The notes under the pieces were generated by a model, which was given only the letters and a program-made list of their open reading frames with translations, had not been told where the DNA came from and searched no databases. Both the position numbers and the translations under genes were made by a program. From NCBI GenBank assembly GCA_025059545.1, contig JANXDJ010000005.1, forward strand, positions 1-50,616: DNA of 50,616 bases, given 5' to 3'. Source of the DNA: Archaeoglobaceae archaeon (GTDB lineage: Archaea; Halobacteriota; Archaeoglobi; Archaeoglobales; Archaeoglobaceae). Within the stretch, counting starts at the first letter, position 1. Every line of letters begins with the position of its first letter. This document shows, piece by piece, positions 3,706-46,337 of this stretch.

Positions 3706-3755
3706 TGAAAAACATGAGAGACCTCTTAATCTGTAATATACGTGGAGGTGGTAAA

Positions 3756-4370
3756 ATGGCAGTTGTTTTTCCATCGAAAGAGTGGATGGACGAACTTTTG
3801 AAAAAAATCAACAGCGATGAAACCTACAAGAAGGTTGCGGCAAACTGGGAGGGGGACTTTCTCTGCAAAATTTTGCTTGATAATGAAGCTTTGAAGGACT
3901 TTCAGAATCCAGAAAAGCTTGCGGGATTTATTTCAATGATGGCTATGATACCAAAGGATAAGCTGATGAATTTCAAGGGTAGAGCAGAAGAGAAGCTTCT
4001 CAATAAATTGGGAGTAACACTTGATCCTAAACTTGACTTTGCAAAGCTCAACGCAAATGAGCTCGCTAAAAAGATTGCAAACATAAAGCTTGAAGAGGTG
4101 CAGGGAGCGGCAAGTTATGTCTGGATGGACTTCTGGCATGGTCAACTCAGGAACTTGGAAGTCGTTACTCCCGGAGAGAAGGAAAATGCTCGATTTAAAC
4201 TAACTGGTCCATACTCTGTTTTCAAGCAGATGGTTGGAGGAAAGGCGGATCCAATAACACTGATAGTTGGTGGAAAGATAAAGCTACAAGGCGATATGGG
4301 TTACATGATGCGTAATATGGCTTCAGTAAAGAGGTTTACAGAATTGATGGCATCAGTTCCCATAAAATAA
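3756..4370 (+). CDS. SCP2 sterol-binding-domain protein, first gene of lipid operon
   Basis: 204 residues from ATG 3756, which follows GGAGGTGG by 4 nt. The C-terminal half (GPYSVFKQMVGGKADPITLIVGGKIKLQGD, shown here as GPYSVFKQM and GGKIKLQGD) resembles SCP2 domains, which bind fatty acyl-CoAs, sterols or other hydrophobic ligands. The N-terminal half (FPSKEWMDELLKKINSDETY) is typical of stand-alone archaeal and bacterial SCP2-like proteins. There is no signal peptide or membrane segment, so it is cytoplasmic. It sits 15 bp before an acyl-CoA dehydrogenase gene, so a role in presenting or holding a lipid substrate for that enzyme is a reasonable inference. A smaller SCP2 protein is encoded at 21467. 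Confidence 0.8.
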   Translation: MAVVFPSKEWMDELLKKINSDETYKKVAANWEGDFLCKILLDNEALKDFQNPEKLAGFISMMAMIPKDKLMNFKGRAEEKLLNKLGVTLDPKLDFAKLNANELAKKIANIKLEEVQGAASYVWMDFWHGQLRNLEVVTPGEKENARFKLTGPYSVFKQMVGGKADPITLIVGGKIKLQGDMGYMMRNMASVKRFTELMASVPIK

Positions 4371-4385
4371 TTTTTTGGTGATTTA

Positions 4386-5681
4386 ATGAATTTCTTAGAC
4401 TTAGAAGAGCTCACTGAAGAGGAGAAATTAATCAGAAGTGAGGTGCACAGATTTGCAGAGGAAGTAATAAGACCTGCTTCGATTGAATTAGACAGAATGC
4501 CCGCTGAAGAGAGAATAAAACCCGGCTCACCATTCTTCAAGGTAATGAAACAGATGAAGAAACTCGGATACCACAAGATCATGATCCCACCAGAGAAGGG
4601 TGGCATTGCCATGACTCCACTTCAGCGATCCATAATTTTTGAAGAACTTGCTTGGGGTAGTCTTGGCTTTGCCACTGCACTTGGAGTGGACATGATCCCC
4701 TTTACTTCAGCAGCATTATTTGGAAGTGAACAGGCTTACCACGATCTCGTCGTTCCATGGCTTGAAAAAGAAGATTGGCATGGATGCTGGGGGGTAACAG
4801 AACCAGAACATGGAAGTGACTACCTAATAATGCTAAGAGAAGAAAAAGAATCAGTGGAGAGAATGGGTAAAGGTAACGTTGTAGCTGAAAAAGACTGTGA
4901 TGAATGGGTGATCTCTGGGCAGAAATCTGCTTGGGTTTCCTCTGCACCTGTAGCAACCCATTGCGGACTCCATGTGCAGGTTAAGGGAGAAAAAACTTTG
5001 GCAAATGGTCTTTTCTGCATTGTTCCCTTAAACCAAAAAGGAGTTAGAAAGGGGAAACCAGCAGAAATGCTTGGAATGCGTGATGATCCACAGGGAGAAT
5101 TGTTCTTCGACTGCGTTAGGATCCCCGAGCACTATGTCATAGTAGCACCAAGCTTTTTCTATGGTGTTTTCTGCGATCAACTTCTCTGTTTAACAAGCTG
5201 TGGAATGGGCGCTTTTTCTGTAGGACTTGCAAGAGCAGCATTTGAAGAAGCTTTAAAGTATGCAAGACAGAGAATTCAAGGAGGGGTGCCACTTGTAAAG
5301 CACAAGAACATCAAACTCAAACTCTATGAAATGTTTGAAAAAGTTGAAACCGCAAGAGTCTACGTTAGAAAAGCAACTGAGTATACTCACAGAAGAATTC
5401 TCGAACTTGGAACCAATGACGCTTCTCCGAGACATGCACGAATGGCACAGATCTATGCCAAAAAGATAGCCTTTGAAGTTGCAAACGATGCTCTGCAGAT
5501 CTTTGGTGCTTACGGACTTAGCAAAGAGTTCATTATAGAGAAGTTCTTTAGAGATGCGCGAGCTTTGCAGATCGAAGATGGCACAGTCGAGGTTCTCAGC
5601 CTTGAAGCAAGCGAAGACTTAATAGATAACTACGAAAAGGACTACTATGATGTTTGCCATATAAATAGGTTTTATTGTTGA
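4386..5681 (+). CDS. Acyl-CoA dehydrogenase
   Basis: A 431-residue flavoprotein of the acyl-CoA dehydrogenase family, which oxidises acyl-CoA to the 2,3-enoyl-CoA and passes electrons to ETF. Family features in order are the N-terminal helical domain, CWGVTEPEHGSD (FAD and substrate region), WVISGQKSAWVSSAP, the C-terminal helical domain with FGAYGLSKEF, and the end motif QIEDGTVEV. At the position of the catalytic Glu in MCAD-type enzymes (the E of YEGT) this protein has Asp, approximately residue 398. That is unusual and may point to an alicyclic or other non-standard acyl-CoA. The start has GGTGAT 5 nt upstream. It is the second gene of the 3756-8339 operon. Substrate unknown. Confidence 0.9.
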   Translation: MNFLDLEELTEEEKLIRSEVHRFAEEVIRPASIELDRMPAEERIKPGSPFFKVMKQMKKLGYHKIMIPPEKGGIAMTPLQRSIIFEELAWGSLGFATALGVDMIPFTSAALFGSEQAYHDLVVPWLEKEDWHGCWGVTEPEHGSDYLIMLREEKESVERMGKGNVVAEKDCDEWVISGQKSAWVSSAPVATHCGLHVQVKGEKTLANGLFCIVPLNQKGVRKGKPAEMLGMRDDPQGELFFDCVRIPEHYVIVAPSFFYGVFCDQLLCLTSCGMGAFSVGLARAAFEEALKYARQRIQGGVPLVKHKNIKLKLYEMFEKVETARVYVRKATEYTHRRILELGTNDASPRHARMAQIYAKKIAFEVANDALQIFGAYGLSKEFIIEKFFRDARALQIEDGTVEVLSLEASEDLIDNYEKDYYDVCHINRFYC

Positions 5682-5712
5682 TTATGTTCTTATAATTAAA
5701 GGAGGTGATAGT

Positions 5713-6450
5713 ATGATTAAGGGAATACCACTCGATGCCCCCTTATATGAAATCGATGAGGAAAGGGGGATTGAATATAGAAATTGTAAGGCGGTTACCG
5801 CGCTCTTTACTCTTAAAAACGATCTCGGCGATCTAATTCCTGAAGGCTTGAAATCGATGGGAAATGGTGGGGTATGGATTTCCCACTATAGCTTCAGCAC
5901 TGTCGGGATCTACAATGAATACATTAGCGTTGTGCAGGTTGAGGACGAGGTAGGAGATCGAGGTTACTATATTCCCTATATCTACGTAACGAACGACTCC
6001 GCATTAGCTGCTGGAAGAGAAGTTGCTGGAGCGCCGAAGAAGTTGGCAAAGATTGAGCTAACGCAAGAGCTCGATCTCGTTCAAGGCATTCTTGAGAGAC
6101 CTACTGGAAAAAGACTTGTGACAGTTACGATGAAGCCAAACGTAAGGGCAAAGGAACTGATTGATTACATTCTGCCAAAGCCGACATATCTATACTCAAT
6201 CAGACATCTCCCACCTCTCAAAGGGAAAGGTGGAGCGACGCAGTTGATAAAATGGTATGCGGACATCGACTTCCATGTGGATCCTGCGGGCGAGAAGGTT
6301 ATTTTCATGGGTCCAGTGAGCATAACATACGATTCTCCTTCTGTCATAGATCCCGTGCATAAGCTTGAAATCGGAACTGTGATTTCCGCAATATACTTCG
6401 AGTTCGACATGAAACTCGGCTTTGTGGACATCTTAAGAGAACTTAGGTGA
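5713..6450 (+). CDS. Acetoacetate decarboxylase-family protein, copy 1
   Basis: 245 residues with the acetoacetate decarboxylase fold signature. YYIPYIYVTNDSAL is followed by GREVAGAPKKLA, in which K109-K110 match the Schiff-base lysine and its neighbour in true decarboxylases. The catalytic lysine is therefore kept. Family members cleave beta-keto acids (acetoacetate to acetone and CO2), but others in the superfamily act as aldolase-dehydratases, so the reaction cannot be fixed. A strong AAAGGAGGTGATAGT ribosome-binding site precedes ATG 5713. The gene lies 31 bp after the acyl-CoA dehydrogenase and 6 bp before a paralogue, so it belongs to a lipid or keto-acid degradation operon. Confidence 0.85.
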   Translation: MIKGIPLDAPLYEIDEERGIEYRNCKAVTALFTLKNDLGDLIPEGLKSMGNGGVWISHYSFSTVGIYNEYISVVQVEDEVGDRGYYIPYIYVTNDSALAAGREVAGAPKKLAKIELTQELDLVQGILERPTGKRLVTVTMKPNVRAKELIDYILPKPTYLYSIRHLPPLKGKGGATQLIKWYADIDFHVDPAGEKVIFMGPVSITYDSPSVIDPVHKLEIGTVISAIYFEFDMKLGFVDILRELR

Positions 6451-6456
6451 ACAAAA

Positions 6457-7269
6457 ATGCTAAAAGGGGGTAGAGAGGGACTATCGATACCTTTGGACGC
6501 TGGTTTATACGGCGCATCGATGCAAACTCTGGCAAAAGATGTAGTTACAGAGTATATAAATTGCGAGGCTTTAATGGCTTTCTTCACAACGAGCGAAGAA
6601 GTCGATGCTCTGCTTCCAGAAGGACTTAACCTTTACAGCAATCCACCAAACGCTGGAGTTTTCATCACAAACTACCCTTATTCCACGCTCGGTCCATACT
6701 ATGAGATGTTCTCGCTCATCCAAGTAGACTTCAACGGCTCCTTGGGTTACTACATACCCTACATATACGTAACAAACGATTCGGCACTTACAGCAGGCAG
6801 AGAAGTTGTAGGAGCGCCGAAAAAGCTGGCTAACATTGGAATAATGAAAGAGAACGACATAGTTCTCGGCTATCTTGAGAGACCAAAGGGTAAAAGGATT
6901 CTGAGCATGACAGTGAAACCGGAGCAGAGAGTGTCAGATGAATTTCTCGATTCTTTGATGCCAAGAAGGCTTGAACTCTACTCCCTTCGTGTCCTTCCAC
7001 CCATAGAAGGCGGAGATGGAGTTGCACAGCTCGTTAGATGGATCTCTTTCATGGACATACATACCGATCCAGAGGAAAAGGTAACCTTTGACAACGTAAA
7101 GCTCGGAAGAAAAAGGATCTGGGGCGGAAATGCGATGATTACTTATGACTCACCATCCATTTCAGATCCTGTGCACAAGATAGCGGTTAAAGAGATTCTT
7201 TTAGGTGCTTACTTACATTTTGACATGGCTTTAAAGCCTGATAAGGTGGTGAAAGAGTGGAAATTGTAG
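6457..7269 (+). CDS. Acetoacetate decarboxylase-family protein, copy 2
   Basis: 270 residues, clearly a paralogue of the preceding gene. They share YYIPYIYVTNDSAL, then GREVVGAPKKLA with K122-K123 retained, the LERPKGKRILSMTVKP strand region and YDSPSISDPVHKI near the C-terminus. It has an N-terminal extension of about 12 residues and an insert near residue 205 relative to copy 1. The two may form a hetero-oligomer or act on different keto acids. The 3' end overlaps the 3-hydroxyacyl-CoA dehydrogenase start by 13 nt, which indicates translational coupling. Confidence 0.85.
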   Translation: MLKGGREGLSIPLDAGLYGASMQTLAKDVVTEYINCEALMAFFTTSEEVDALLPEGLNLYSNPPNAGVFITNYPYSTLGPYYEMFSLIQVDFNGSLGYYIPYIYVTNDSALTAGREVVGAPKKLANIGIMKENDIVLGYLERPKGKRILSMTVKPEQRVSDEFLDSLMPRRLELYSLRVLPPIEGGDGVAQLVRWISFMDIHTDPEEKVTFDNVKLGRKRIWGGNAMITYDSPSISDPVHKIAVKEILLGAYLHFDMALKPDKVVKEWKL

Positions 7270-8339
7270 GTATTGCGGGCGCGGGAACGATGGGATCAGC
7301 AATCTCCGCACTTTTTGCAAACGCTGGTTACGAGGTGGTTCTTTACGACATAAGCGAAGAAGCTTTGAAAAGAGCCAAGAGTAGAAATAGCCACGAACAT
7401 CTTATAGAACTTGAAAAAGCTGGGCTTAGATTGCGGGAAACACTGGATAACATAGAATACACAACGAATTTTTCAGACTTGAAAGGTTGTGATCTTCTTT
7501 TAGAGACGATAAAAGAGGATCTGGATATAAAAATTCAATTTTTTAAAAAAATCGCGAGTATTTGTAAAAATGCGATCTTTGCAACAAATACCTCATCTTA
7601 TATGCCTTCTGAGATTTCTGAAGGAGCAAAAGTAAGCGTTTTTCTCTTTCATTTTTCCAATCCGCCGATCGAGATGCCTCTTGTCGAGATCTCCGGAGAG
7701 GGAGATGTGAAAAAGCTTGTTGAATATGCAGAAAGAATAGGAAAGAAGCCAGTGGTATTGAAGAAACAATGTAGAGGACATGTTTTAAATAGAATGCTCT
7801 GTGCCCTCGGCATTTCGCTTGGCTATGCTTTAAAAATGGCAAGTCCTTATGAGATCGATGCTTCGATCAAGCTATTTGGGTTCAAGTATGGTTTGTTCGA
7901 GATCTTCGATAGGATCGGTTTGGATATTTCATTAGACGTGCTTAAAAGCCTTGAAGAAGCGTATCCGAGATTTTCATCTGATTTTACGAAGGATGTGCTT
8001 AAACAATTTGTAGAATCGGGTAAGCTCGGAAAGAAGAGCGGAGAAGGATTTTATAAATGGGCTGGAGAAGAACCAATAGCTGAGAATGTTGAAGGTTATC
8101 CAGATGTCACAATTTTGCTTGGAGTGATAATAAATGAGGCTTTCAGGATGATCGAAGAGGGTATTGCAGATAAAGAGACTATAAACGAAGTTTGGAAGCT
8201 CGCAACCCTATCCCCGGGAATTTTTGATCTTGCTAAGCTCATAGGCTACGAAAACTTGATCTCAAATCTTGAAAAGGCTTACAAAGAGAGTGGTGCTGAG
8301 ATCTTCAAACCGATGATTCGAAAAGATTTAAATTTTTGA
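7257..8339 (+). CDS. 3-hydroxyacyl-CoA dehydrogenase
   Basis: A 360-residue NAD-dependent 3-hydroxyacyl-CoA dehydrogenase, the third step of beta-oxidation. The Rossmann motif GIAGAGTMG is at residues 5-13. The catalytic His is in FHFSNPP (H132), with the partner Glu region TIKED and NTSS. RGHVLNRML starts the first C-terminal dimerisation domain, ending in GKKSGEGFYKW, and a second, shorter helical domain follows. There is no enoyl-CoA hydratase domain, so hydration must be done by another protein. The start is GTG 7257 after AAGGTGGT and overlaps the end of the previous gene. It is the last gene of the SCP2/ACAD/ADC/ADC operon. Confidence 0.9.
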   Translation: MEIVGIAGAGTMGSAISALFANAGYEVVLYDISEEALKRAKSRNSHEHLIELEKAGLRLRETLDNIEYTTNFSDLKGCDLLLETIKEDLDIKIQFFKKIASICKNAIFATNTSSYMPSEISEGAKVSVFLFHFSNPPIEMPLVEISGEGDVKKLVEYAERIGKKPVVLKKQCRGHVLNRMLCALGISLGYALKMASPYEIDASIKLFGFKYGLFEIFDRIGLDISLDVLKSLEEAYPRFSSDFTKDVLKQFVESGKLGKKSGEGFYKWAGEEPIAENVEGYPDVTILLGVIINEAFRMIEEGIADKETINEVWKLATLSPGIFDLAKLIGYENLISNLEKAYKESGAEIFKPMIRKDLNF

Positions 8340-39894: not shown

Positions 39895-41673
39895 GTGAGA
39901 ATAATTGTTATTAGGAAGAGAGAAGATCTCAAAGACTGTGATCTGGCACTCATCGACAGCGAAGACGTTGATCTTTTACGTGAAGCAAGAAAACACAGTA
40001 AATTTGTCGTTTTTTTAGGTAAGAAGTTAGGAGGAACAGAGATTTTTAGTAAAATCGATAATTTAATCTCCGAATACGAGATGTTCAAGTCGATTTTAGA
40101 ACAAATCATTCATCCGATAATTATATTCGATGTAAATGGAGTTCTCTACACAAATCCAAAGGCTAAGGAATATTTCGGATCGGAATTGTCAAAAATAGAA
40201 GTCCTATTGGACTTTTTGTATCCTTATACTCGAGAAAAGGCTTTAGAAAAGATTCATAAAGTTCTAAGAGGGATGAAAGTTGAACCAAGTGAAGAACTTT
40301 TCGTCATGCCAGATGGTAGAAAATTATGGTTCGAATCAAATTTCTCTCTTTTAAATTTTAAGGGAAAAGAGGCTATTCTGCTGACTCTCAGAGATATCAC
40401 AGAGAAAAAGAAATTCGAGGAGAAACTTGAAGAAAGCAACAAGAGATACAAGGAATTCTTCGATAATTCCCTCGATATCATCGCTGTAACAGACCTAAAA
40501 GGTAATTTTGTTGAAGTTAATAAGGCTTTTGAAGATGCTTTTGGATACACAAAAGAGGAAGTGAAAGGGAAAAATTTTGCCGAAGTGTTGAAGCTTGGTA
40601 AGGAAGTAGCGGAGGAGATCTTCAAAAGTTATAACAAGGCTTTTAGAGAAAAAAGGGATCTTATTGGATTAGTGTTCGAAGTTAAAAGGAGGGATGGTAG
40701 AGAAATAATTGTTGAAGGAAACATCAGATTAATAAGAGAAGGATCCAATGTGCTGGGCTTTATTGGGAATTACAGAGACGTTACTGACAGAATTAAACTT
40801 GAAAAGAAGCTTAAAGAAAGCGAAGAAAGATACAGAAAGATATTTGAGAACTCTCCCTCTCTTATTGCACTGGTAGACAAGAGCGGTATTTTTATTGAGG
40901 CAAATCAAGCAATGGTAGAGAGCATAGGTGAGAATCCCGTTGGAAAAAGTCATTACGATCTTTTTTCTAAGGAAGTTGCGGAAAGAAGAATAAATAACAT
41001 GAAAAAGGCTATTGAGGAAGATAAAATAATCTCATTCCAGGATGAAAGAGAAGGGGGGTTCTTTTTCAACCAATACATTCCAATAGAACTGGAAGGAAAG
41101 AAGCATTGTCTGATCATCGCTCAGGAAATCACCGAATTATTGAGACTAAACAATCTTTTGAGAGGAATAGCGCTAATAGGTGAAACTTTGGCAATAGTTA
41201 GAGATCGTGAAAAATTGAAGGAAAGTGTTGAGAAAATTCTTTCAGATTACTCTGCAAAGATCTCAGAAAAACCCGAGGGAATTTATTTTCCTATAACTTA
41301 TGGGGAAAAGAACTATGGCTATCTTTGTGTGAAATCAGCTGGAGAAGAGGAAAGAAGGTTGCTAAAGACTTTAGCAGACGATCTTGCCTTAGTTTTTAAA
41401 TCGATAGAAGACGAAGAAAGAAAGCAGGAGCTTTATGAAAGACTATCTGAGAACATCCGGACTATCGCCTATCTCATAGATGGAATCAGAAATCCTCTTG
41501 CCGTGATGTTGGCGTATGTCGAAATGCTAATTGAGGATGAAAAAGCAAAAGAAAGGGTTTTTCAGCAGATCGACAGAATTCTCAGAATTATGAGAGAACT
41601 CGATGTTTCTTGGATTAGGTCTGAGGAGTTAACTAGTAGTAAAATGATCCAGTCCAATAATTACCTAAATTAG
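39895..41673 (+). CDS. Multi-PAS sensor protein with degenerate histidine-kinase-like end (HTR-like)
   Basis: 592 residues. A short N-terminal receiver-like stretch (1-50), PAS1 (~55-165, IIFDVNGVLYTNPKAKEYF), PAS2 (~185-295, AVTDLKGNFVEVNKAFEDAFGYT), PAS3 (~300-410, ALVDKSGIFIEANQAMVES), a GAF-like region, and a DHp-like helix pair with IDGIRNPLAVMLAY. In a true kinase this box has His where Asp (of IDG) is seen, and no ATPase domain follows. It is therefore probably a sensor or adaptor, of the type called HTR-like in Archaeoglobus. GTG 39895 is preceded by TTTTTAAAA at leaderless distance. Confidence 0.85.
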   Translation: MRIIVIRKREDLKDCDLALIDSEDVDLLREARKHSKFVVFLGKKLGGTEIFSKIDNLISEYEMFKSILEQIIHPIIIFDVNGVLYTNPKAKEYFGSELSKIEVLLDFLYPYTREKALEKIHKVLRGMKVEPSEELFVMPDGRKLWFESNFSLLNFKGKEAILLTLRDITEKKKFEEKLEESNKRYKEFFDNSLDIIAVTDLKGNFVEVNKAFEDAFGYTKEEVKGKNFAEVLKLGKEVAEEIFKSYNKAFREKRDLIGLVFEVKRRDGREIIVEGNIRLIREGSNVLGFIGNYRDVTDRIKLEKKLKESEERYRKIFENSPSLIALVDKSGIFIEANQAMVESIGENPVGKSHYDLFSKEVAERRINNMKKAIEEDKIISFQDEREGGFFFNQYIPIELEGKKHCLIIAQEITELLRLNNLLRGIALIGETLAIVRDREKLKESVEKILSDYSAKISEKPEGIYFPITYGEKNYGYLCVKSAGEEERRLLKTLADDLALVFKSIEDEERKQELYERLSENIRTIAYLIDGIRNPLAVMLAYVEMLIEDEKAKERVFQQIDRILRIMRELDVSWIRSEELTSSKMIQSNNYLN

Positions 41674-41730: not shown

Positions 41731-43443
41731 ATGTCTGGTGCTGGAAAGACTATAATGGAACTTAGACCTGAGGATGTAGAGAGAATTTGGATTAAGCATT
41801 ATGACAAAGGTGTTCGAGACCACATAGACTATCCTGAAATTCCACTTTATGCTCTGCTTGAAGAAAGTGCTAAGAATTATCCAGATAAACCTGCTTTGAT
41901 ATTTTATGGAAAGAGGGTCACTTATGGAGAGTTAAACGAGCTCTCTAACAAGGTTGCTGGTTATTTATACGACTTGGGAATAAGGAAGGGTAGCAAAGTC
42001 GTGATCGATCTCCCGAACATTCCACAATACGTGATCGCATACTATGGCATCTTGAAATTAGGGGCAACAGTAGTGCAATGCAATCCGCTTTACACTGAGA
42101 GAGAGATAAGATATATAGTTGAGAATAGCGAGGCTGAGGCTGGTTTCTTCTTTGAATCAATATTTCCAAGAATTGAGAAGATCTTGAACGAAGGAAAGCT
42201 TAAAAAAGCAATAATTTGCAAGGCTGAGGATTTTCTACCTTTCCCGCTCAATTATCTCTATCCATTGAAAAAGGAGAAGGTTAAGATACCAAAAAGGGCA
42301 GAAGTTTCTTTCTGGAAGGAAATTGAAAAACACAAGCCATTAAGAGAAAGACCAGAGATAAATCCAAAAGAAGACGTAGCGGTGTTTTTATACACTGGTG
42401 GAACCACTGGAGTTCCAAAAGCGGTTATGAGCACACATTACAATCTCGTAGCAAATACATATCAAGTTCTTGAGTGGCTTCCAGATAAGGATTCACAAAA
42501 AGATGTGTATATAGGTGTTCTACCATACTTCCACAGCTACGGAATGACCACTTCTTTGAATGGACCAATCGCTTTTGGGGCGACGATAGTTCTCGTTCCA
42601 GATCCGAGGGATATAAAGACAATACTGAAGTTCATCCAGAAATACAAGGTCACAATATTCTGTGGTGTTCCAACAATGTATGCAGCAGTTCTGAACTATC
42701 CGGGGAGGAAAAAATACGATATATCTTCGGTGAGAGCATGTATAAGCGGTGCTGCACCATTGCCAATTGAGCTGAAGAAGAATTTTGAAAATGCTACGGG
42801 TGGAAAACTTGTTGAGGGCTATGGGCTAAGCGAGACCTCGCCAGTGACGCATGCAAATCCAATTTATGGTTTGAATAAAGCTGGAAGCATTGGAATTCCG
42901 ATGTCCGACACTTTGGCGGTGGTGATTGACGATGAAGGCAACGTTTTACCAGCTGGTCAAATAGGGGAGCTTGTGATCTATGGTCCTCAAGTCATGAAGG
43001 GATACTGGAAGATGGAAAGTGAAACTGCGAAAGTTCTCGTAAATGGCTGGCTTCTCACAGGAGACATGGCTAAAATGGACGAAGATGGCTACTTCTACAT
43101 AGTTGAAAGAAAGAAAGACATGATCATCGCTGGAGGCTATAACATATATCCAAGAGAGGTTGAAGAAGTGCTCTACGAGCATCCTGCAGTGCTCGAAGCA
43201 GCTGTTATCGGTGTTCCGGATCCTTATAGAGGAGAAACTGTGAAAGCCTTCATAGTTCCTAAGCCTGAGTTCAAGGGAAAGATCAGTGCTGAAGAGATCA
43301 TAAAATTCTGCAAAGACAAGCTTGCTGCATACAAGGTTCCCAAGATCATAGAGTTTAGGGATGAGCTACCAAAATCTGCGGTTGGGAAGATCCTTAGAAG
43401 GGTTTTAAAGGAGGAGGAGACGAAAAAATCAAGTGGCTCCTAA
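41731..43443 (+). CDS. Long-chain acyl-CoA synthetase (AMP-forming ligase)
   Basis: A 570-residue ANL-superfamily ligase that activates fatty (or other carboxylic) acids to acyl-CoA. AMP-binding motif YTGGTTGVPKAVMSTH, LPYFHSYGMT, GYGLSETSPVTHANP, YGPQVMKGYW, GDMAKMDEDGYFYIVERKKD and the catalytic lysine near PKSAVGKILRR. Length and motifs fit long-chain fatty acyl-CoA ligases. The ATG lies after an A-box-like TATTTAT (41700-41707). The genes after it code for cytochromes and a membrane oxidoreductase that could take up electrons from oxidation of the acyl-CoA it makes. Confidence 0.93.
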   Translation: MSGAGKTIMELRPEDVERIWIKHYDKGVRDHIDYPEIPLYALLEESAKNYPDKPALIFYGKRVTYGELNELSNKVAGYLYDLGIRKGSKVVIDLPNIPQYVIAYYGILKLGATVVQCNPLYTEREIRYIVENSEAEAGFFFESIFPRIEKILNEGKLKKAIICKAEDFLPFPLNYLYPLKKEKVKIPKRAEVSFWKEIEKHKPLRERPEINPKEDVAVFLYTGGTTGVPKAVMSTHYNLVANTYQVLEWLPDKDSQKDVYIGVLPYFHSYGMTTSLNGPIAFGATIVLVPDPRDIKTILKFIQKYKVTIFCGVPTMYAAVLNYPGRKKYDISSVRACISGAAPLPIELKKNFENATGGKLVEGYGLSETSPVTHANPIYGLNKAGSIGIPMSDTLAVVIDDEGNVLPAGQIGELVIYGPQVMKGYWKMESETAKVLVNGWLLTGDMAKMDEDGYFYIVERKKDMIIAGGYNIYPREVEEVLYEHPAVLEAAVIGVPDPYRGETVKAFIVPKPEFKGKISAEEIIKFCKDKLAAYKVPKIIEFRDELPKSAVGKILRRVLKEEETKKSSGS

Positions 43444-43462
43444 CTTTTTTATTTTACAATTT
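43444..43462 (+). terminator. T-rich terminator after the acyl-CoA ligase gene
   Basis: CTTTTTTATTTTACAATTT follows the stop codon at once and separates the ligase from the cytochrome operon, which has its own A-box (GTTTATAGC, near 43524-43532). Confidence 0.5.
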
Positions 43463-43573
43463 TTCTCCACTCTTTTGAAAACAAAATTGGTTTCAAAGAC
43501 AGAATGCAATCAAATTGAGAAAAGTTTATAGCTTGGAATATGACGGAAGTTAGAGAACCAAGAAGGTGAAAAG

Positions 43574-43945
43574 ATGAGGTGGACTATACTAATCCCTATC
43601 TTGGCTTTACTTATGCTTGGATGCGTCGAGCAGAAAGCGACGCTTAACGTGGAAAGAAACGTCGTTTACAACTGCCAGTGCCACGAAGAGCCGTGGAAAT
43701 ACGTTAAGCATTATTCAAATGTTTCTAGCTGTAAAGATTGCCATGGAAACGAGATCTTGGCAACCCATAAGAACCTCTCTGGTTGGGTCTGGGATCATGC
43801 CTACAATGCAACTTGCACTCTCTGCCACGATTCATCTCTACTTGCAAACCACATGCCAGATAAATGCGAGATCTGCCATAAGACGATGGTCGAAAGGCAC
43901 AGCAAATATCTAAAAGAATATATTGAACACGGGGTGAAATCATGA
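43574..43945 (+). CDS. Multihaem c-type cytochrome, probable lipoprotein
   Basis: 123 residues. A hydrophobic signal peptide ends in LMLGC (C17), a lipobox-like site, so the protein is probably lipid-anchored on the outer face of the membrane. Three CxxCH haem sites: CKDCH (53-57), CTLCH (81-85), CEICH (98-102). A fourth candidate is CQCH (34-37), one residue short of the standard spacing, preceded by extra His. Several further His residues could be distal ligands. Start ATG 43574 follows AAGGTGAAAAG. It overlaps the next cytochrome gene by 4 nt, so the operon is co-translated. Confidence 0.87.
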   Translation: MRWTILIPILALLMLGCVEQKATLNVERNVVYNCQCHEEPWKYVKHYSNVSSCKDCHGNEILATHKNLSGWVWDHAYNATCTLCHDSSLLANHMPDKCEICHKTMVERHSKYLKEYIEHGVKS

Positions 43946-44343
43946 AGAGGTTTTTATTCGTCTTTTTAATAAGCTTTGTAGTTTTCTTTGCCCCTATAAA
44001 TGCCCAACAAAGCGTTCATACTTGCGACACTTGCCACAGACATGCAGACGTTTATACCGCTCACCTTTCTACTTGGACTAAATGTGCTGACTGTCATGGA
44101 GATCTGCATGCTCTACATTCTTCAAAGGATGCAAGCTGTCAGGATTGCCATGGAGGAAACCCATTCACGATCCTTTGTCATTCGATGCCAAGTGATATGA
44201 ATATACCGACAACAGAAGGTCTTGGTGCTTCATGCGTAAAATGCCATGCGATTGTGACCGAACATCAGGGAGATTGCAAGAGCTGTCATACCGAAGACAT
44301 TAATGTGATCCATAAGGATGCCAACATCTTCGGAGGTGAGTAA
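43942..44343 (+). CDS. Pentahaem c-type cytochrome
   Basis: 133 residues. Signal peptide KRFLFVFLISFVVFFAPINA, then five CxxCH sites at residues 28-32, 48-52, 66-70, 98-102 and 112-116. A stray CH at 79-80 (FTILCH) lacks its first cysteine. The exported protein would carry electrons outside the membrane. Its gene overlaps the previous cytochrome by 4 nt and ends 2 bp before the fused membrane oxidoreductase start, so the three form one unit. Confidence 0.9.
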   Translation: MKRFLFVFLISFVVFFAPINAQQSVHTCDTCHRHADVYTAHLSTWTKCADCHGDLHALHSSKDASCQDCHGGNPFTILCHSMPSDMNIPTTEGLGASCVKCHAIVTEHQGDCKSCHTEDINVIHKDANIFGGE

Positions 44344-44345
44344 AG

Positions 44346-46337
44346 ATGCTTGAATTCATTTATTATGTCTTACTAATCATAGCTTTGGCAATTTTTGCTA
44401 AGGGGCTAAAAGAAAAGATCGATTTTGTCAACAGCGGTCGTCCAAGCTCGGAGCCGAGAACGAACAACAAGCTTAGAAGGTTAAAATACGTGATTGTAGA
44501 TGCTTTTCTTTTGATAAGGCTAATTAAGAGAGAGAAAAAGATGGGCATAGGGCATTTCTTGGTGCTTTGGGGCTTCATAATTCTCTTCATAAACATATTT
44601 GTCTTAATGCTCGCTGCTGTGATGCCGGACTTGTTCAGGAGCAGTTATCAGATCTTTGCATTTTCTCTTAGCGGCTATGAGATCTTCAAATACTTGATGA
44701 CGATCTCAGCAATCCTTTTCTCCTTGGGTCTGCTTTACATGGCTGTAAATCGCTACATTCTTAAGCCATCGAGGTTCGGAAGAAAGTATGATAACGCTAC
44801 TGATGATAACCTTGTATTACTAACCCTGATCTTTGCAGCTATTTTTGGAGTTGCTCTTAAAGAATATTTCAGATTCGCTCCAGACTTTGTGTTCAGAATT
44901 CCAGTAATAGGCTTCAAAATAAGCATTCCAAACGAAATCTTTGTTAATATTCTATGGTTTGCCCATGCGGTGCTAATTCTTGCGATCCTCGCTTTGATTC
45001 CATATACAAAGCTTCTACACATACTCACAGCACCGGTTGCGATCTTCACAAAGACAGAAAGAAAGCCCGGAGTGCTTAGACCAACACCACAAACAGAAGA
45101 CTACGTGGGAATGGTGAAGAGATCCGATCTTACAAGAAGAGATCTGCTTGCCAGCTTAGCATGCATGCGTTGCGGAAGATGTCAAGACAATTGCCCAGCT
45201 TTCAACTCAAAGACGTCGCTTTCACCAATGTTCCTTGTGCAGAATATTAGACACTTAGATAAAATTTTGAAGGACGAAATGCCTATTGGAAAGCCATACG
45301 ACGTTGTGCTCGAAGAAGATGGTGGTGAAGCTCAAGAGCCATTATTGCTCGACAACGTCTTGGACATGCACGCGATATGGGCATGCACGACTTGCAGAGC
45401 CTGCATGGAGATGTGCCCGGTATACATTGAGCAAATGGACATGATCATAGAGATGCGTAGAGGTGTGATCGAAAGCGGAGAAACTCCGCCAGACGTGAGA
45501 GATCTCCTAACGAACATACAGAAGCAGAAGAATCCTTGGGGAGAAGGAAAGTTCAAGAGAGACCAATGGGTGAAGAAAGCTGAGGTTCCAGTGCCAACAG
45601 TTAAAGATAACCCTGAGTTCGAATGGTTATGGTTCGTAGGCTGTGCTCACAGCTTCGACAACAGGAATATCCCAGTTACAGCAAAGCTTGCAAAGATCCT
45701 TAAGGACATTGGCGTTAACTACTCAGTTCTCGGAAGAGATGAAGGCTGTTGTGGAAACGATGTGCGAAGAGTTGGTGAAGAAGGGTTGTTCCAAGTGCTC
45801 AAAGAAGAAAATGTTGCCCAATTTGAGAAATTTGGAGTTAAGAGGATCATCGCAACCTCTCCGCACTGCTTCAACACCCTGAAGAACGAATACGATGGCT
45901 ATGAAACAAAGTTCATCCTTGAAGTGATCTATGAAGCGATAAAGAATGGAAAACTGAAGCTTAAGAAGCCAATAAACAAGACTGTCACCTTCCACGATCC
46001 GTGCTATCTTGGAAGATACAATGGACTTTATGAGTTACCAAGAGAGATCTTGAAGTCAATTCCTGGGCTTAAGCTTGTTGAAATGCCAAGAAACAGAAAC
46101 AGAAGCTTCTGCTGTGGTGCAGGTGGCGGAAATCTTGTCAGAGAGTATCCAGGGCAGTTCAGACCGAACAACTTGAGAGCGAAGGAGGCTGCAGAGACTG
46201 GAGCAGAAGTGCTTGCAGTAGCTTGCCCGTTCTGCATGATCATGCTCGAAGATGGGGTCAAAAGCGAGAAGCTCGAGCAAAAAATAACAGTGCTTGACGT
46301 AATTGAGCTTGTTTACGAATCCGCATACGGACAATAA
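44346..46337 (+). CDS. Fused NarI-like cytochrome b / HdrD-like Fe-S oxidoreductase (EMO or DsrMK-like)
   Basis: 663 residues. The N-terminal third has about five membrane helices with haem-ligand His candidates in IGHFLVLWGF and WFAHAVLIL...LLHILTAP. Then two 4Fe-4S groups: CMRCGRCQDNCPA (~residue 272) and CTTCRACMEMCPV (~346), and two CCG domains: FVGCAH...CCGNDVRR (~467) and DPCYLGRY...CCGAGGGN (~589). This is the layout of EtfAB:menaquinone oxidoreductase (EMO) and of a DsrM-DsrK or HdrE-HdrD fusion. It would move electrons between a cytoplasmic donor and the quinone pool, with the two cytochromes encoded just upstream as partners. The exact donor is inferred. Confidence 0.85.
   Translation: MLEFIYYVLLIIALAIFAKGLKEKIDFVNSGRPSSEPRTNNKLRRLKYVIVDAFLLIRLIKREKKMGIGHFLVLWGFIILFINIFVLMLAAVMPDLFRSSYQIFAFSLSGYEIFKYLMTISAILFSLGLLYMAVNRYILKPSRFGRKYDNATDDNLVLLTLIFAAIFGVALKEYFRFAPDFVFRIPVIGFKISIPNEIFVNILWFAHAVLILAILALIPYTKLLHILTAPVAIFTKTERKPGVLRPTPQTEDYVGMVKRSDLTRRDLLASLACMRCGRCQDNCPAFNSKTSLSPMFLVQNIRHLDKILKDEMPIGKPYDVVLEEDGGEAQEPLLLDNVLDMHAIWACTTCRACMEMCPVYIEQMDMIIEMRRGVIESGETPPDVRDLLTNIQKQKNPWGEGKFKRDQWVKKAEVPVPTVKDNPEFEWLWFVGCAHSFDNRNIPVTAKLAKILKDIGVNYSVLGRDEGCCGNDVRRVGEEGLFQVLKEENVAQFEKFGVKRIIATSPHCFNTLKNEYDGYETKFILEVIYEAIKNGKLKLKKPINKTVTFHDPCYLGRYNGLYELPREILKSIPGLKLVEMPRNRNRSFCCGAGGGNLVREYPGQFRPNNLRAKEAAETGAEVLAVACPFCMIMLEDGVKSEKLEQKITVLDVIELVYESAYGQ

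Follow-up and report, generated by a model that had tools for sequence, protein, structure and literature searches.

What is the role of a membrane protein that joins a cytochrome b domain to iron-sulfur domains when its gene lies directly behind two genes for exported multihaem cytochromes? The question is raised by a 50,616-nucleotide stretch of DNA from an Archaeoglobaceae archaeon (contig JANXDJ010000005.1 of assembly GCA_025059545.1, positions 1 to 50,616 of the forward strand; the window is this whole stretch), in which the cytochrome genes CYT1 and CYT2 are followed by a gene for a single-chain protein with a NarI-like membrane part and an HdrD-like part, here called the fusion. The reading we favour, with moderate confidence, is that the fusion is an archaeal electron transfer flavoprotein (ETF):menaquinone oxidoreductase (EMO) of the EtfD type, which in one clade has a fixed partnership with CYT1, CYT2 and a second module built around an NrfD protein; the direct evidence is gene content, gene packing, clade, co-occurrence and ligand residues. 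It is probable that the cassette is a cytochrome-linked variant of EMO and that the fusion has been misnamed in the literature. The cassette comprises the following features:

43574 to 43945, + strand: CYT1, an exported lipoprotein-like cytochrome of 123 amino acids with three CXXCH motifs and one CQCH
43673 to 43684, + strand: the CQCH (CX1CH) motif of CYT1, invariant and aligned with the first CXXCH of CYT2
43942 to 44343, + strand: CYT2, an exported cytochrome of 133 amino acids with five CXXCH motifs and an LCH (the LCH at 44176-44181)
44346 to 46337, + strand: the fusion, 663 amino acids, an EMO/EtfD-type protein with a NarI-like membrane cytochrome b, two [4Fe-4S] motifs and two CCG domains

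These genes and a ligase gene upstream all lie on the + strand, and the three cassette genes are tightly packed, with the CYT1 stop and CYT2 start sharing 4 nucleotides and 2 nucleotides separating the CYT2 stop from the fusion start. A preliminary description of this DNA had proposed just such a cassette, two exported multihaem cytochromes and a NarI/HdrD fusion beside a ligase, and its coordinates and motif counts agree with ours. Among 149 open reading frames (ORFs) of at least 60 amino acids in six frames, only CYT1 and CYT2 carry two or more CXXCH motifs, and shuffling of residues reached the observed CXXCH number in 0 of 20,000 trials for each protein, ruling out haem sites that arose by chance.

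The identity of the fusion follows from its domains and ligands, which are arranged as follows:

44529 to 45050, + strand: NarI-like membrane domain with invariant H70, H207 and H225
45162 to 45416, + strand: two CXXCXXCXXXCP [4Fe-4S] motifs (C273-C283 and C347-C357), invariant in 67 of 67 aligned rows
45642 to 45869, + strand: CCG domain 1, with C433, C468, C469 and S505-P-H507-C508, against C503, C538, T539 and C581-P-H583-C584 in EtfD
46002 to 46235, + strand: CCG domain 2, with C553, C589, C590, C627 and C630, corresponding to the D2 cysteines of EtfD

Pfam recognises the 4Fe-4S dicluster region and the two CCG stretches, with NarI just below its cutoff (22.3 versus 22.9 bits), and the fusion reached no NCBIfam cutoff among 25 of 26 families listed. 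Its scores (with cutoffs) were 169 (385) bits for TfrB, 78 (400) for DsrK, 51 (750) for HmcF and 90 (735) for TmcB; the last two rule out HmcF and TmcB, and the DsrK score together with the failed cutoffs of the Dsr models rules out a DsrMK fusion. The top match among solved structures is Mycobacterium smegmatis EtfD (9ojn; 292 bits, E 7e-86), and the match to HdrB structures has E 1.6e-6. EtfD, as presented in the available part of its description, is likewise one chain with a five-helix membrane part, one haem b, two [4Fe-4S] clusters and two CCG domains. The same text gives the haem b ligands as His78 and His241, describes cluster D2 as a noncubane cluster held by five cysteines and His583 and calls it non-catalytic, and describes cluster D1 as a linear [3Fe-4S] cluster (PMC13083937). 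In the fusion H70, H225 and H507 align with these three histidines, and neither they nor the eight [4Fe-4S] cysteines vary in any of the 67 archaeal and bacterial rows; the cysteines of CCG domain 2 are invariant in archaeal rows and conserved at 0.97-1.0 in bacterial rows. The fusion thus has both the single-chain layout of EMO/EtfD (a haem-b membrane domain, two [4Fe-4S] motifs and two CCG domains) and the haem ligands and non-catalytic cap histidine of EtfD. Of the earlier label 'EMO/DsrMK-like', the EMO half stands on the EtfD match and the haem and cap histidines, and the 'single-chain DsrMK' half falls with the DsrK score.

The fusion differs from EtfD in having no long C-terminal tail and in the replacement of Thr539 and Cys581 by C469 and S505. 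The ligand set of the linear D1 cluster (C503, C538, C581, C584 and Thr539), an EtfD feature that may not define all EMOs, is accordingly incomplete: all seven archaeal fusion rows listed have C433, C468, C469 and C508 with Ser505, and bacterial rows have Cys at position 469 in 0.7 of 37. This site bears on an alternative, that the fusion is a membrane-bound HdrDE whose catalytic cluster, supplied with electrons by menaquinol via haem b, reduces the heterodisulfide of coenzymes M and B (CoM-S-S-CoB) or another disulfide, with the cytochromes as an accessory entry. Two CCG domains are what such an enzyme would have, and published annotations in Candidatus Methanoglobus hypatiae, Candidatus Methanomixophus and Archaeoglobus fulgidus (AF0755), as given in the available parts of those papers, point the same way. 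CCG domain 1 of the fusion, however, lacks the full cysteine set ending in CXXC, Ser505 standing in for one Hdr cysteine; where EtfD has C-P-H-C, archaeal fusions have S-P-H-C (seven of seven rows listed) and HdrB has C-N-G-C, a comparison made with two HdrB chains and no methanogen HdrD. With His507 in place of the HdrB glycine, the fusion resembles EtfD at the residue said, in the available text on EtfD, to distinguish an electron wire from a site of disulfide reduction. The full cysteine set is retained instead by the GlcF-type HdrD-like proteins (L112 and L113) of G055, the genome closest to the window. We consider the HdrDE function unlikely, and the fusion is probably not the 'HdrDE' of the literature as far as its predicted function is concerned.

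To place the fusion among its relatives we surveyed 55 genomes of the family Archaeoglobaceae, in which the closest by the fusion is G055, at 92% identity. Every full-length match with a named organism and more than 50% identity belongs to the Archaeoglobi, as do the first 22 of 38 fusion genome loci. Group A fusions have CYT1 and CYT2 directly 5' (L001-L013, L015, L020, L021, L091 and the window). Group B fusions, in 13 family genomes, share the domains and ligands of the window protein at 54-59% identity to it, but their flanks as retrieved (L014, L016-L019) contain no ORF with two or more CXXCH motifs, and their genomes yield no CYT1, CYT2 or NrfD partner at the thresholds given below. With 17 group A and 13 group B genomes, the two groups were not seen together in any genome among the matches listed. 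In a maximum-likelihood tree of 50 archaeal and bacterial rows, group A forms one clade (17 rows, support 100/99), a branch divides group B from the rest (13 rows, 90/87) and the bacterial proteins form a third set (20 rows, 100/100), with long bacterial branches flagged by the tree program; the phylogeny proposed as a check on the cassette therefore places the cytochrome-linked fusions together within this set of archaeal and bacterial fusions. When 26 of the 30 group A and B genomes are placed on an RNA polymerase tree, the distribution of the two groups needs four changes, three of them forced by well-supported branches. Since group A is a single fusion clade and yet at least three switches are required on the RNA polymerase tree, the systems have been exchanged or differentially lost. 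An independent-pairs test had too few pairs to attain significance (three pairs, p 0.25) and, since the partners coincide exactly with the fusion label, set that label against itself.

Around the bacterial relatives, no ORF with three or more CXXCH motifs was found in 16 of 16 loci (L023-L038, several of which are short contigs or gene fragments). The cytochrome link had been put forward as unusual for an EMO, and these loci together with the group B flanks bear this out. Two of the 16 have an etf gene directly 5' of the fusion, L032 with EtfB and EtfA and L030 with EtfA, and in both the EtfA reading frame extends past the start of the related fusion; EtfA and EtfB were not found in the other 14 (blastp at 1e-5 with archaeal queries, several of the contigs being short). 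Compared with EtfD and bacterial EMOs, the group A fusion is thus set apart by two exported multihaem cytochromes encoded 5' and by a co-occurring NrfD module.

This second module consists of genes for an NrfD protein, a ferredoxin and a tetrahaem cytochrome. CYT1, CYT2 and the NrfD protein were each found in the same 17 of 55 genomes, which are those with a group A fusion (profile thresholds E <= 1e-30 for CYT1 and E <= 1e-40 for CYT2, and E <= 1e-40 for the NrfD protein); none of the other 38 genomes passes, the best E-values there being 1.8e-6, 2.2e-16 and 2.3e-30, respectively. Co-occurrence of both cytochromes with the fusion, one of the checks suggested beforehand, is therefore complete. 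All 17 group A genomes have the complete NrfD-ferredoxin-tetrahaem set, so that the 'compact' module of the preliminary description was incomplete. The three genes precede CYT1 in five loci (L009-L012 and L021), and the NrfD gene lies apart from the cassette in 11 of 17 genomes, at a distance of at least 17 kb or on another contig; in G013 one NrfD copy lies apart and a fragment of the tetrahaem cytochrome precedes CYT1 at a contig end. In all 12 separate loci retrieved, the three genes are side by side.

The NrfD protein matches PF03916 (129 bits) and the ferredoxin PF13247 (93 bits); the ferredoxin has a twin-arginine-like start and the tetrahaem cytochrome an N-terminal hydrophobic stretch. 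A Protein Data Bank (PDB) search with the latter gave weak matches (best E 0.0035). An NrfD-family membrane protein paired with a multi-cluster exported ferredoxin is the combination that defines NrfCD, and a multihaem cytochrome beside such a pair recalls QrcCD and HmcBC as well. Unlike these, the second module lies outside the curated families (57 of 348 bits for NrfD and 161 of 378 for NrfC, and also outside HmcC and QrcD) and accompanies an EMO. By this comparison it looks like a menaquinol dehydrogenase of the NrfCD type that would feed haems c.

The same set of subunit types, NarI-like, HdrD-like, haem c, exported ferredoxin and NrfD, is found in the DsrMKJOP and Hme complexes of sulfate reducers, and the whole system could be a thiol/disulfide complex in which the fusion is a joined MK, the cytochromes serve as J and the NrfD protein and ferredoxin as OP, acting on a DsrC-type carrier. 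The ferredoxin scores 191 bits against the DsrO cutoff of 200 and is 35% identical to a true DsrO. The DsrP model is a weak test here, because the DsrP of the dsrOPMKJ locus used as control (L100, in G011) itself fails its cutoff (74 of 350). In DsrMKJOP and Hme, though, M and K are separate, K has one CCG stretch and J has three CXXCH motifs; the present proteins fall below the DsrK and DsrO cutoffs, no DsrM appears among the 25 of 26 families listed, and there is no listed match of CYT1 or CYT2 to DsrJ or of the NrfD protein to DsrP. Moreover, separate dsrOPMKJ genes exist in two genomes that also have the fusion system: in G011 by family scores, DsrO, DsrM, DsrK and DsrJ passing their cutoffs, and in G010 (L106) by gene order as judged by eye. 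No dsrA was found in G001, G002, G015, G020 or G055, the closest genomes to the window. We regard a Dsr-like complex as very unlikely. The dsrOPMKJ-type genes of L100, L106 and L109, three Archaeoglobus-type genomes with dsrA, lie directly 3' of an etfBA operon; among these three loci family scores were obtained for L100 alone.

Of the 32 family genomes that have a fusion, 30 also have a classical ETF (at least 110 bits; in two by fragments), against 5 of the 23 that lack a fusion (Fisher 3e-8, uncorrected for kinship). The HdrDE function predicts occurrence with mcrA, and five relatives of the window do have mcrA; yet mcrA was found in just these 5 of 17 group A genomes, and not in the other 12, in any of the 13 group B genomes or elsewhere among the 55, some of which are incomplete. 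Over its cutoff, dsrA occurs in 8 of 17 group A genomes. As some genomes with the cassette have mcrA, some dsrA and some neither gene, CoM-S-S-CoB and DsrAB are unlikely to be its common partner.

Taken with the co-occurring NrfD set, the CYT1-CYT2-fusion cassette looks like half of a route from ETF through menaquinone to cytochromes. We propose that acyl-CoA dehydrogenases would reduce ETF, which would pass electrons to the CCG clusters of the fusion, and the conserved ligands suggest onward flow through the two [4Fe-4S] clusters and one haem b to reduce menaquinone. From there electrons would most likely move through the NrfD protein and ferredoxin to the tetrahaem cytochrome, CYT1 and CYT2, and finally to an acceptor beyond the membrane, for which the preliminary description had suggested iron as a candidate. 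Haem b might instead reduce CYT2 directly, without menaquinone. The ETF donor, the direction of flow, complex formation and the final acceptor are all predicted from the sequences. A reverse arrangement, in which exported cytochromes import electrons and the fusion reduces ETF or some other carrier in the cytosol to drive reductions, could draw on haem b and cytochrome wires being in principle reversible, and the closest genomes, methanogenic by gene content, could use external electrons; the acyl-CoA ligase and beta-oxidation neighbours described below fit outflow better, and we think uptake improbable.

Several observations weigh against an EMO partnered by cytochromes. At the D1 site archaeal fusions have Cys469 for Thr539 and Ser505 for Cys581, which means that cluster D1 is not identical to that of EtfD. 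The motif S-P-H-C also occurs in soluble HdrD-like proteins, some encoded in genomes that have the fusion and some in others (L110, L115, L118, L012 and L022), and thus marks a set wider than the fusions; the 14 such proteins aligned have S-P-H-C in five, S-P-H-A in three and C-x-G-C in six. Classical ETF occurs without any fusion in five genomes (G022, G025, G026, G028 and G029), was not found in the available sequence of the group A genomes G007 and G015, and etfAB was seen within the operon in no group A locus read. Linked co-transfer alone could account for co-occurrence in the five linked genomes, where it says little on function beyond the linkage itself, and the 11 genomes that keep both halves unlinked are mostly close kin. 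The AlphaFold models of CYT1 and CYT2 are poor (mean confidence scores, pLDDT, of 64 and 57), and we found no expression or protein data on either cytochrome in the literature. In A. fulgidus, according to the available part of an expression study, AF0755 is induced on H2/thiosulfate together with the Vht hydrogenase and was read as HdrDE, and etfAB is constitutive, with many lipid genes also induced (PMC3949148). On that portion of the report, expression clearly favours neither EMO nor HdrDE, because hydrogenase and beta-oxidation genes rose together.

The cytochromes themselves have sub-cutoff Pfam matches only (Cytochrome_C7 at 24.1 for CYT1 and 21.5 for CYT2, against 24.8), and a PDB sequence search with CYT2 gave weak matches (best E 0.23). 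Matches to CYT1 and CYT2 that carry an organism name are from Archaeoglobaceae, Archaeoglobales or Archaeoglobus, most matches having no name; two CYT1 relatives are labelled DnaJ-class chaperone in the source database, which is a misnaming. The N terminus of CYT1 is lipobox-like, with Cys17 nearly invariant, and 35 of 35 database relatives have exactly one CQCH and three CXXCH motifs. For CYT2, five CXXCH motifs and an additional [L/F]CH are present in 19 of 20 matches, the remaining one being weak (E 2.9e-4) with three CXXCH. The two proteins are homologous (hhalign probability 99, E 5e-18), and the alignment sets the CQCH of CYT1 opposite the first CXXCH of CYT2; at both sites a Tyr lies six residues after the His, and the following His three residues after that Tyr. 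CYT1 has four other invariant histidines for its four CH motifs, so that four bis-histidine haems would fit; CYT2 has five for six CH motifs, and its [L/F]CH may therefore be haem-free. We regard CQCH and [L/F]CH as possible non-canonical haem sites; CYT1 and CYT2 would together carry eight canonical haems, and up to ten if both bind. In the open-access literature we found no demonstration of haem attachment at CX1CH/CXCH, an absence that is weak evidence, and CXCH is already in print as one search pattern of a pipeline.

Cytochromes of this kind also occur in other settings. In L012 a second CYT1-CYT2 pair (4649-6639) lies behind a QmoC-like ferredoxin/membrane protein and upstream of the NrfD gene of the same genome. 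In the group B genomes G014 and G016-G018 (L055-L058), inspection by eye found distant CYT2 relatives, paired pentahaem lipoprotein-like proteins with Pro/Thr-rich linkers; no fusion was seen in the small loci read, and KaiC-like ATPases are adjacent in three of four.

Upstream of the cassette lie two further features:

41731 to 43443, + strand: long-chain fatty acyl-CoA ligase of 570 amino acids (Pfam AMP-binding, 1.1e-103)
43512 to 43534, + strand: promoter-like block AAATTGAGAAAAGTTTATAGCTT upstream of CYT1, conserved inside a diverged spacer

The ligase has the Pfam domains AMP-binding and AMP-binding_C, and its top NCBIfam models are long-chain-fatty-acid-CoA ligases, all below cutoff. 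The spacer between it and CYT1 is 130 nucleotides long and contains the block, which we take to be similar to a B recognition element and TATA box; the block is identical in the window, L002, L015 and L020, has one base changed in L091 and several in L001. Of 18 loci, the window included, 9 have the ligase next to the cassette, in two arrangements, upstream in the window, L001, L002, L004, L015, L020 and L091 and convergent downstream in L010 and L011, with several of the non-adjacent loci on short contigs. That the ligase belongs to the module, as first described, holds for adjacency; a shared transcription unit does not follow, given the 130-nucleotide spacer with its promoter-like block and the 9 of 18 loci, and certain operon membership is ruled out on the same grounds. 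It is probably a neighbour with its own transcription and plausibly a pathway neighbour of the cassette. Similarity and inspection by eye place etfBA and an acyl-CoA dehydrogenase gene upstream of the ligase in G002, on one contig with the cassette, these genes and a thiolase-like gene lying within about 11 kb upstream of CYT1, and a 3-hydroxyacyl-CoA dehydrogenase-like gene second 3' of the fusion.

Elsewhere in the window, a three-PAS sensor with HisKA and no ATPase domain among its Pfam matches lies at 39895-41673, with ilvN on one side and the ligase on the other; L002 and L015 have homologues of about the same length at the equivalent place, and L091 has a similar ORF there. A second lipid-like cluster at 3714-8339, identified by eye, encodes SCP2-like and acyl-CoA dehydrogenase-like proteins, two acetoacetate decarboxylase-like paralogues and a 3-hydroxyacyl-CoA dehydrogenase-like protein.

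How does this accord with the 'HdrDE' proteins already in print? In Ca. M. hypatiae, a highly expressed 'fused hdrDE' is proposed to regenerate coenzymes M and B, HdrB being absent; the genome also has dsrMK and dsrOP, and 'cytochrome' occurs nowhere in the main text (PMC10945360). HdrDE is likewise proposed for Ca. Methanomixophus (PMC7380581) and called common in Archaeoglobi (PMC6474303), and AF0755 is described as homologous to a fused hdrDE and as having dual CCG domains (PMC3949148), again in the parts of these papers available. From those descriptions we infer that the published 'HdrDE' proteins of Archaeoglobi belong to the present fusion family. The Ca. M. hypatiae protein would do so on the basis of G055, where a single full-length fusion occurs alongside several soluble HdrD-like proteins, and AF0755 is probably a group B fusion, equated by description and not by accession. 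In the open-access literature no title was found that deals with the present cassette system, and no paper combines methylmenaquinone oxidoreductase, electron transfer flavoprotein and Archaeoglobus, both of which are weak evidence.

Electrons from acyl-CoA have a rather high potential, and their transfer to menaquinone is a known energetic problem in anaerobes. An EMO wired to exported cytochromes would, if the proposal is true, give these electrons a direct outlet. A bolder joint proposal, which we hold to be doubtful, is that CYT1, CYT2 and the fusion assemble with the NrfD-ferredoxin-tetrahaem set into one ETF:cytochrome c supercomplex with at least 12 haems c, through which Archaeoglobi, methanogens included, would put beta-oxidation electrons directly onto extracellular cytochromes, partly bypassing menaquinone, with a CYT1 haem attached through CX1CH and the archaeal 'fused HdrDE' proteins being EMOs and not heterodisulfide reductases. 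The invariant CQCH offers a clean case on haem attachment through CX1CH. If the fusion is an EMO, then the role assigned to AF0755 in A. fulgidus, as far as the available text describes it, would need re-examination, and the regeneration of coenzymes M and B in methanogenic Archaeoglobi would need an enzyme other than the 'fused HdrDE' named in the accessible part of the report on Ca. M. hypatiae.

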